A DNA stretch of 64,000 nucleotides. It comes from Ianthella basta (lineage: Eukaryota; Porifera; Demospongiae; Verongiida; Ianthellidae). Location of the stretch: assembly GCA_964019415.1 (NCBI GenBank), contig OZ025871.1:8234713-8298712 (forward strand). The letters are read 5' to 3'. Under the pieces are notes generated by a model. The model searched no databases and had not been told where the DNA came from. It was given only the letters and a program-made list of their open reading frames with translations. The translations under genes were made by a program, and so were the position numbers. Shown in pieces: positions 58,697 through 61,600 of this stretch. How positions within the stretch are numbered: the stretch's first letter is position 1; the number at the start of each line of letters is the position of its first letter.

Positions 58697-61600
58697 GTGA
58701 GTATTTCGTTAATACCGTACATAGCTAGCTAGCTAGCCAGGTAAATCGACCCTTCAATCCTAGAGTGAACTGCCCGTTATTGAAGAGTACCGACTCTAGT
58801 CCCACTCTACTCTAGTGACATCCCTACCATTCATGGTTGAATTGTGTGATTTCTCACTTATTTCGTGACCTGCGTCACCAGTGCGTTTGCCGTTGTGTAG
58901 ACAATATCCAAATCCACTTCAGCAAACGTTGGCCTTGTAGATTTCTCGACTGCTTCCCATTTCTTTGAGCTAGTCAGAGTGTGAGTCCATGTCTGTTTCC
59001 TTCATCTGACGTTTAACTATTGACGAGGGGTTTGTACGCGTGTGATTAATGGTGTTAATATCATTGCAAGTCAATAGCAAAATAGTATATTTTTACTATG
59101 TATGTGTAGTGTATAATTATGGTCTGCCTTCCCTCAATCTGTCATAGATCCTCCAGTTCAGGCCGTATGCCCATCTCTGCCCAGCAGTGGTGCGTGTCTG
59201 TTGGGCTGTTCAACTGCAGTCGAATGAGGTGGCTGTTGAAAGGAGGAGGAGCGAAGATGACAGCTCCTCCCTCGTCCTCCAGGCCCAACACGCATGCGGT
59301 GAAGACAGGGCTCCTTCCACTTCTTTACCTGCTCATGTTAGCCTGTGCAATGCCTCCCCGACTCCTCCTCATTCAGAGTGGGGACGTGGAGCTCAACCCT
59401 GGACCAGTCAAGACAGGTGAATATGAAGGGATGTATTAAATGTGCCATACAGTTAATGTGGCACCCCAGTTACGTATCTAGTATGCTATTGCTATGGAAA
59501 TTCATATGGTTTATTGTGGTGTGTTATTATCCCTAATGATATGTTCCTGTATGTTTCCAGTCTGATGTAGACCAGTACCCCATACTGCCTCCACTGGTAT
59601 ATATGTGTCGTGTGCTCACTTGCGGACTGACCCAGTCTTCCTCCTAGCATAAACAGTTTTCCTCTAAGTTGCACAGCATACTAACTGTTCACTCAATTAC
59701 AGCATGCAAGAGGTATCCAGTATATCCCTGTCATCTCTGCTGTGCAGCTCACAGTAACTGCATTCATTCATTAGTATTTTGTTCATATTTATCCTTTGAT
59801 TTATTAGTCCATGAATACACTGCATGATTGGTGTATTGTTAAATTAAGGAATATAACAGTACTATGGTATTAAGGACAACCTCTTGCATAGGAGAAACTG
59901 TCCATTGATTGACTGGTTGATTGATTGATTGATTGATTGATGATTGTATCAGTACTGTGCACCTGTATGTTGTGTACAAGAATATATCTGTATTGAGTAT
60001 GTACTGTATGCTGTGTTGGGTGTTGTTTCATGTACGTGTATTTGCCGCCACACCATATCCTATTCCAGTGCATGTGTTTGTACCTGGTTGCTCTGTAGGT
60101 GCTGAGCCATCTCTGACTGATCTTTTAAGACACGTTGTCCCAACCATTGCGGCACAGTGGAAGATGGTGGGGTATGCCTTGGGAGTGCAGCCTGAGGTCT
60201 TGAGCACTGTTGAGTACAATGAGCGGAGAGCAGAAAGATGTGCGATGGAGCTCCTAGCTCTGTGGTTACGTAGAGATCCTGGAACAGGTGATCAACCTCG
60301 TACGTGGCATTCTGTTCTAGAAGCAGTTGAAACGGTGATTGGACCTGGAGAGAAAGAAAGAATTGAGGGTAAACTGAAAGCATTGACAACAGATTCTTCA
60401 CTTCATGATAACTGTCAGAAAATGGTGAGTATCTGCGTAATATTAAATAACATAATTATTCATGTGTCAAAACTTGCCTGTGGTACAAGAAAGCTGGTCG
60501 TGCAATGCTAGTCTGTTGTGTTAGATCCTTGCTCCTATTACGTTATGCCTGCCTTGGGGTGTTAGGTCTATTGTGCGATAGACTGTGTGGTGCAACTCAT
60601 GCAGACCTGTTGGGAATTATACATATCCTTGACAAAGAACTGACTGCATTTTCTTGTAAATCCCACTTCTTTTCCATGGCACACGTGAGACATATCATAA
60701 ATCTTCTAACACTTTGAAAATCTAATTAGTGCAAACTTTCTGCAGTCTTACTTTGAATTGTTCGTAAGTTTCAAATTATTGGATATAATTTTGTGTAGTC
60801 CTCTAATTTTTGGCAATGGTACCAGGGTACTGCATAATACTCCAAGTGAAATGGTACCTAACAATGGTAAACACACCTAACGTAGCTGTGTTCAGATATG
60901 TCTGCCATGTTGAGATTAGCTGGCTACGAGTAGCGCAGGTGACAGCTACAGCTTTCCTGACCTGGGTGCTGTGTGCTGTAATGGTTTTAATTGTTTGTGA
61001 ATTATGTGCAGTTTTGCATTATTTATATCAGCACTGTCTGCAGACCCTGATGGATCAGGTCCCTCTGTTGGTGGACCTCCATCATCAAAGGAAAGCAAAG
61101 GAGACAACACAGGGCAAGGTATGCTTCCATCTACTTCTGTTATTATGACTTATATACTGAGTGTGCTAAATGTTATGGATAGCCCACAATAGTGTGTGTG
61201 TGTGTGCATGTGTGTGTGTATGTGTGTGTGTGTGTGTGTGTGTGTGTGTGTGTGTGTGTGTGTGTGTGTGTGTGTGTGTGTGTGTGTGTGTGTGTGTGTG
61301 TGTGTGTGTGTGTGTGTGTGTGTGTGTGTGTGTGTGTGTGTGTGTGTGTGTGTGTGTGTGTGTGTGTGTGTGTGGAGTAGTTCAAATTCTGATAGTGGCT
61401 CACTAACTTAATTGCCTTTGAATTCACAACCCAAGGGGAGTGCCATCTTCTATGCACAAGAGGGTGGTGGGAGGCTCTGTCATCCAGGACCTGCCCGGGC
61501 CTGCCACCATTGTGTCATGTGCCATGTTTGCTGTATGTTCCTCCCCTGCATGCAGGCAGCAGGAAGGGCAAACGAAGTGCTACAGAAGATGCTCCTTTTT

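Follow-up and report, generated by a model that had tools for sequence, protein, structure and literature searches.

A predicted ribosome-skipping 2A leader before a Death-like exon in the sponge Ianthella basta: probably a decaying 5' module of an NLR-type immune gene

A stretch of 64,000 nucleotides from the demosponge Ianthella basta (contig OZ025871.1, positions 8,234,713 to 8,298,712; hereafter "the window") contains an exon that encodes a 2A ribosome-skipping box behind a hydrophobic stretch, followed by an exon that resembles a Death domain. The question raised by this locus is whether the two exons form a product of their own, without NACHT or LRR, which the original prediction regarded as a new architecture, or the beginning of a longer gene. 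Our analysis favors the latter, with a probability of about 0.6: the leader and the Death-like exon would open the coding part of an NLR-type immune gene, as its exons one and two, and the copy in the window would be decaying. The features of the locus are as follows:

59167..59403 (+): leader of 79 codons, counted from its ATG through the Gly of NPG (ATG and frame common to relatives)
59167..59214 (+): N-terminal motif MPISAQQWCVSVGLFN (alignment with other leaders)
59296..59352 (+): hydrophobic stretch AVKTGLLPLLYLLMLACAM (hydropathy)
59377..59406 (+): 2A box SGDVELNPG/P, where skipping is expected between 59403 and 59404
59417..60098 (+): putative intron 1, 682 bases, GT..AG, phase 1 (splice-site reading)
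60099..60424 (+): Death-like exon, phase 0 at its end (splice sites, structure model, profile searches)

NPGP is found only once in the six frames of the window, within SGDVELNPGP (59377–59406), which fits the D(V/I)ExNPG/P motif. The leader starts with MPISAQQWCVSVGLFN, comprises 79 codons from the ATG at 59167 to the Gly of NPG, in agreement with the length of about 79 residues given earlier, and ends with LLPLLYLLMLACAMPPRLLLIQSGDVELNPG, followed by Pro at 59404. Its N-terminal motif includes QWR in other leader types, and QWC or PWC in the subgroup of the window copy (group A). The hydrophobic stretch previously noticed upstream of the 2A box is confirmed by the hydropathy analysis, where residues 44–62 make up the best 19-residue segment (Kyte-Doolittle mean 1.82). 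The arrangement of the sea-urchin SpNLR2A type, with a 2A sequence near the N-terminus behind a hydrophobic stretch, is thus present, the signal activity being only predicted. The start of the exon originally placed at 59148 does correspond to a possible acceptor, but comparison with the group B copies points to 59162; both sites are located upstream of the ATG. Another ATG further upstream (59119) was ruled out as the start, since it is not conserved in group B.

Searches of the genome (209 Mb, 96 contigs) revealed 33 copies of the leader DNA. DVELNPGP is kept in 31 of the 32 copies read (including L047, with the loss in L048), and the single unread copy, on contig C1, matches the 2A DNA pattern. 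Three copies on C95 are the same as copies on C4 over the compared span and the copy on C51 is close to another one; hence, some of them probably represent alternate haplotypes, which brings the number of independent copies closer to 29. The DNA pattern of D(V/I/M)ExNPGP has 360 exact matches in the genome, taken together for all gene types (with places listed for the first 100 of them), versus 0 for the reversed pattern, which together with the 33 leader copies indicates that the 2A leader is more than a chance occurrence. The box in the window appears to be a genuine 2A sequence, as was originally proposed, and ribosome skipping is predicted from the motif. Among 15 unique leader copies of group B the pN/pS ratio is 0.27. 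A Death exon follows the leader within 1.5 kb in 18 of the 30 Death loci read, and no NPGP was found within 1.5 kb in L063–L071, the nine most distant of these 30; likewise, inspection by eye revealed no 2A place within 3 kb upstream of the Death matches on C1, among the 2A matches listed. The link between 2A and Death therefore does not seem to be general outside the close family. At C2:15254873 and C2:15178041 (both +) a different 2A exon (LLLLAGDVEVNPGP at the former, the same DNA motif at the latter) precedes diverged Death matches by 1.4–1.7 kb, which suggests that 2A sequences stand before Death also outside the family of leaders that begin with MPIS.

The leader exon ends at the donor AAGACAG/GTGAAT after 59416, and the Death-like exon begins at 60099, behind the acceptor CTGTAG/GT, with its frame open to the donor after 60424. 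The predicted phase 1 join would read VKTG-AEPSLTDLL (the start of the Death exon being AEPSLTDLLRHVVPTIAAQWKMVGYALG), so that the two exons have compatible phases, as stated in the original prediction. The splice sites flanking the Death exon are kept in the 24 closest loci (L042–L065). The assignment of the domain is weaker: the window exon matches Pfam Death (PF00531) with an E-value of 0.0017 and 18.9 bits, under the cut-off of 22.6 bits, although 12 of the 20 aligned relatives match it at E ≤0.01 and P0040, a relative composed of leader, 2A and Death, scores above the cut-off. AlphaFold2 with the 20-sequence alignment yielded a confident helical bundle (mean pLDDT 87, pTM 0.78) with five helices assigned, the criterion for the Death domain fold being a six-helix bundle. 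A profile search of solved structures returned 14 weak matches, of which the best is RIPK1 (E 0.025), followed by TNFRSF25 and PIDD, and which include two designed proteins. We refer to the exon at 60099–60424 as Death-like. A candidate third exon (61048–61119) was not accepted, as two frames are equally good and, in the loci read, its match is confined to group A.

What follows the Death exon can be seen in related loci. In L058, L059 and L060 it ends with a phase-0 donor and, after an intron, a phase-0 exon VQSFFSRMKEHY...GAPGVGKST begins, which in the two cases scanned scores as NACHT (1e-16 in L058 and 1.7e-14 in L059); L062 has the same P-loop downstream, with an acceptor that our script did not find. 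Because Death runs in phase into NACHT in L058–L060, the plan of the family is probably 2A leader, Death, NACHT. This does not support the original view of a new architecture devoid of NACHT and LRR, and sea-urchin DEATH-NACHT-LRR proteins with an N-terminal 2A have in any case been published already (PMC4981915). For the window copy, the nearest NACHT among the matches listed lies ~24 kb downstream, on the far side of a 2A-CARD leader, and an LRR-like frame was noticed downstream by eye, without a Pfam match. The two could still be joined, as Death and the downstream NACHT exon would meet in phase 0; the CARD exon is in phase 1 at its end and would need a connecting exon.

The association of 2A sequences with NLRs extends beyond this locus. 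On C2, a 2A motif lies on the same strand within 10 kb upstream of 15 of the 20 NACHT matches listed, versus a mean of 7.8 when places are drawn at random from the same arrays (a count this high or higher in a fraction of 0.001). On C4, 28 of 36 CARD leaders have a NACHT within 25 kb downstream, and a CARD leader is present within 25 kb upstream of 26 of 56 NACHT matches, both counted among the matches listed. These counts indicate that the link between 2A and NLRs is not special to the window, yet not complete. In a region of C2 (1104245–3894820, -) 54 of the exact 2A motifs listed share one strand, often 20–30 kb apart and interleaved with NACHT matches. At a paralogous locus on C4 (6128395, +; L010) a third 2A frame, LLLVLAGDVEVNPGPGKGK, comes after the CARD leader and before the NACHT exon.

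The leader exon itself varies unusually little. Of nine paired group B loci, eight have leaders of the same length; in these eight, pS is 0.062 for the leader vs 0.232 for the adjoining Death exon, and intron 1 of group B shows 54–70% identity between clades; in the extreme pair, L023 and L034, leader pS is 0.016, Death pS 0.344, and intron identity 60%. The leader-Death frame is intact in eight of the nine group B pairs, with a stop in L038. The leader exons of L012–L041 are near-identical at synonymous sites, with the adjoining intron and Death exon diverged. The leader may have been homogenized, by gene conversion or by the spreading of the exon, or else there may be constraint on its DNA or RNA in addition to that on the protein. 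In six loci, with four distinct sequences, a CARD exon comes after this same type of leader (L029 = L032, L030 = L031, L037, L040), CARD being called from 64.5–66.4% identity to the CARD exon of the gene neighboring the window copy, which itself matches Pfam with an E-value of 0.00039, slightly under the cut-off. The best explanation, judged from these comparisons, is that the leader exon serves as a cassette that can head Death exons as well as CARD exons. A second leader type, of 129 codons to Gly (MPISNEQWRVAVGLW ... SGDIETNPGP), heads the neighboring CARD gene and has at least 40 matches in the genome, and the one copy read from the C2 array is a CARD-type leader with DVEANPGP.

According to the mechanism we propose, the leader is translated first and the ribosome would skip one peptide bond at NPG/P, so that the leader comes off on its own and the Death domain becomes part of a cytosolic product with Pro as its first residue. 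Where skipping fails, the hydrophobic stretch would send the fusion of leader and Death (or Death-NACHT) to a membrane or the secretory pathway. The leader exon would act as a cassette before Death and before CARD exons alike, and the 2A-Death pair of the window would be an intact-looking member of a decaying subgroup, located upstream of a 2A-CARD leader and a NACHT exon.

Group A, the subgroup of the window copy, comprises 12 copies, 11 on C4 and one on C51. Leader and Death frames are intact in three (the window copy, L016 and L047) and broken in nine: L013 lacks the MPIS start, L014 and L015 lack most of the Death exon, and a stop is found in L017, L018, L019, L020, L021 and L048, the last of which also has NPRP. 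Each of the 11 group A leaders on C4 has a 2A-CARD leader 6.3–24.4 kb downstream on its own strand and, beyond that, a NACHT at a distance of 15.1–33.5 kb (in one case 74.9 kb), among the matches listed. All eight CARD leaders read out of at least 40 (that of the window, one beside L001, and six fetched for pairing) are intact, versus three of 12 Death modules (Fisher p 0.0014, for copies that are not independent); their pN/pS of 0.78 indicates no strong constraint on the intact CARD leaders either. In group A pN/pS is 0.50 for the leader and 0.64 for Death, values that are not neutral and speak against decay. The first estimate was 0.86 from seven unique leaders, and given its drop to these values with more copies we do not claim neutrality for group A. 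An apparent excess of exon over intron divergence in group A (leader 3.8% vs 1.8%) also shrinks, to 2.1% vs 1.6%, without L015, L047 and L048, and the corresponding figure for Death is inflated by the deleted exon of L014.

On this evidence the window copy is probably a decaying 5' module of a 2A-NLR that likely no longer serves as the main 5' end of the receptor, even though it is itself intact, which counts against decay. A functional short protein of 2A and Death that lacks NACHT and LRR, as originally envisaged, which might be an adaptor or a decoy, would agree with this intact frame, with the lack of a NACHT between the window copy and the next CARD leader among the matches listed, and with two proteins of the Amphimedon queenslandica type (P0055 and P0134) without a Pfam NACHT match, which may be partial models. 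We consider it unlikely, as nine of the 12 sister copies are broken, the closest complete relatives continue into NACHT, and no convincing stop or last exon was found 3' of the window Death exon. Slightly more doubtful is the possibility that one gene has two alternative first modules, led by 2A-Death and 2A-CARD, and a NACHT exon common to both: the order of group A leader, same-strand 2A-CARD leader and NACHT in 11 of 11 cases on C4 and the matching phases of Death and NACHT speak for it, but not the broken state of nine of the 12 Death modules, nor the copy whose next listed NACHT is ~75 kb away. The wider idea that one uniform 2A leader cassette arms NLR bodies, with Death and CARD first modules sharing one NACHT body here and in the sister loci, deserves the same low rating; with a Death or CARD first module and a cytosolic or membrane-bound product, one gene could then make four receptor forms. 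Both the Death-only product and the alternative first module are less likely than decay of the window copy.

An origin of the 2A sequence from a retroelement, which by accident came to lie before a Death exon, was also considered, since 2A is present in non-LTR retrotransposons (PMC4981915) and long reverse transcriptase-like frames were seen by eye elsewhere in the window (27530–29629 and 46869–48887, both +). Such frames were not seen by eye beside the leader, the borders of the leader exon are sharp, and the exon is followed by Death within 1.5 kb in the 18 loci mentioned above and by CARD in six others; with its exon borders and downstream exons against it, we regard this origin as very improbable. 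The frame at 27530–29629 is followed by a recombinase-like frame, again judged by eye.

Among known systems the closest is that of the sea urchin, where, according to PMC4981915, 14 of 87 NLR entries at NCBI have a 26-residue N-terminal 2A-like sequence, in line with the original mention of 2A leaders on sea urchin NLRs, and SpNLR2A6 was shown both to mediate skipping and to serve as a signal sequence in mammalian and plant cells. The sponge genes resemble SpNLR2A as described there in the N-terminal 2A after hydrophobic residues and, in group B relatives, in DEATH followed by NACHT. They differ in that the leaders have 79 and 129 residues instead of 26, with a conserved N-terminal motif, and occupy a separate exon before Death or CARD, their activity being only predicted. 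What appears to go beyond the sea-urchin case is thus the long leader with a QWR-type motif, the choice of Death or CARD, and the near-uniform leader exon. In sponges, NLRs of Dysidea avara and A. queenslandica have been reported with CARD or DEATH before NACHT-LRR, in large expansions, some of them with transmembrane segments that suggested membrane-bound forms (PMC12909245); the terms "2A-like" and "signal peptide" are absent from the main text of that survey. In the open-licence literature, 2A is joined with sponge NLRs in none of the titles and abstract openings listed; "2A-like" occurs there neither with sponge and death domain nor with Amphimedon and non-LTR retrotransposon, and with Porifera it occurs just in an unrelated gene name. 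2A leaders may supply some of the membrane segments of sponge NLRs and, if they work, would offer a direct explanation for those reported; ribosome skipping would then be used not just in the sea urchin but also by a large number of immune genes in an animal phylum that branched off early. Being nearly the same in genes that have otherwise diverged, the leader exon offers a tractable example of a 5' cassette shared between genes.

Searches with the window protein identified 41 proteins, 16 of them with MPISAQ leaders and 15 of these 16 with a full 2A. P0040 contains leader, 2A and Death in one frame, and may hold a short intron, since one segment is missing from named models, P0060 among them. 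P0040 in turn retrieved 260 relatives, and D(V/I)ExNPGP is kept in 117 of the best 120 listed, whose named members are from A. queenslandica and are titled Death, CARD or NACHT domain-containing, or uncharacterized. Together with the leader copies of I. basta (31 of 32), this answers in the affirmative whether NPGP is conserved, on which the original prediction depended. The A. queenslandica leader type was not recovered in the I. basta genome with P0040, which gave seven weak matches, all to the Death part. The A. queenslandica proteins have a related N-terminal motif, MIDVSQWRASIGLWN, and share the order of a QWR-type leader, 2A, and then Death or CARD; the leader sequence and the exon plan differ, as 2A and Death are in one frame there.
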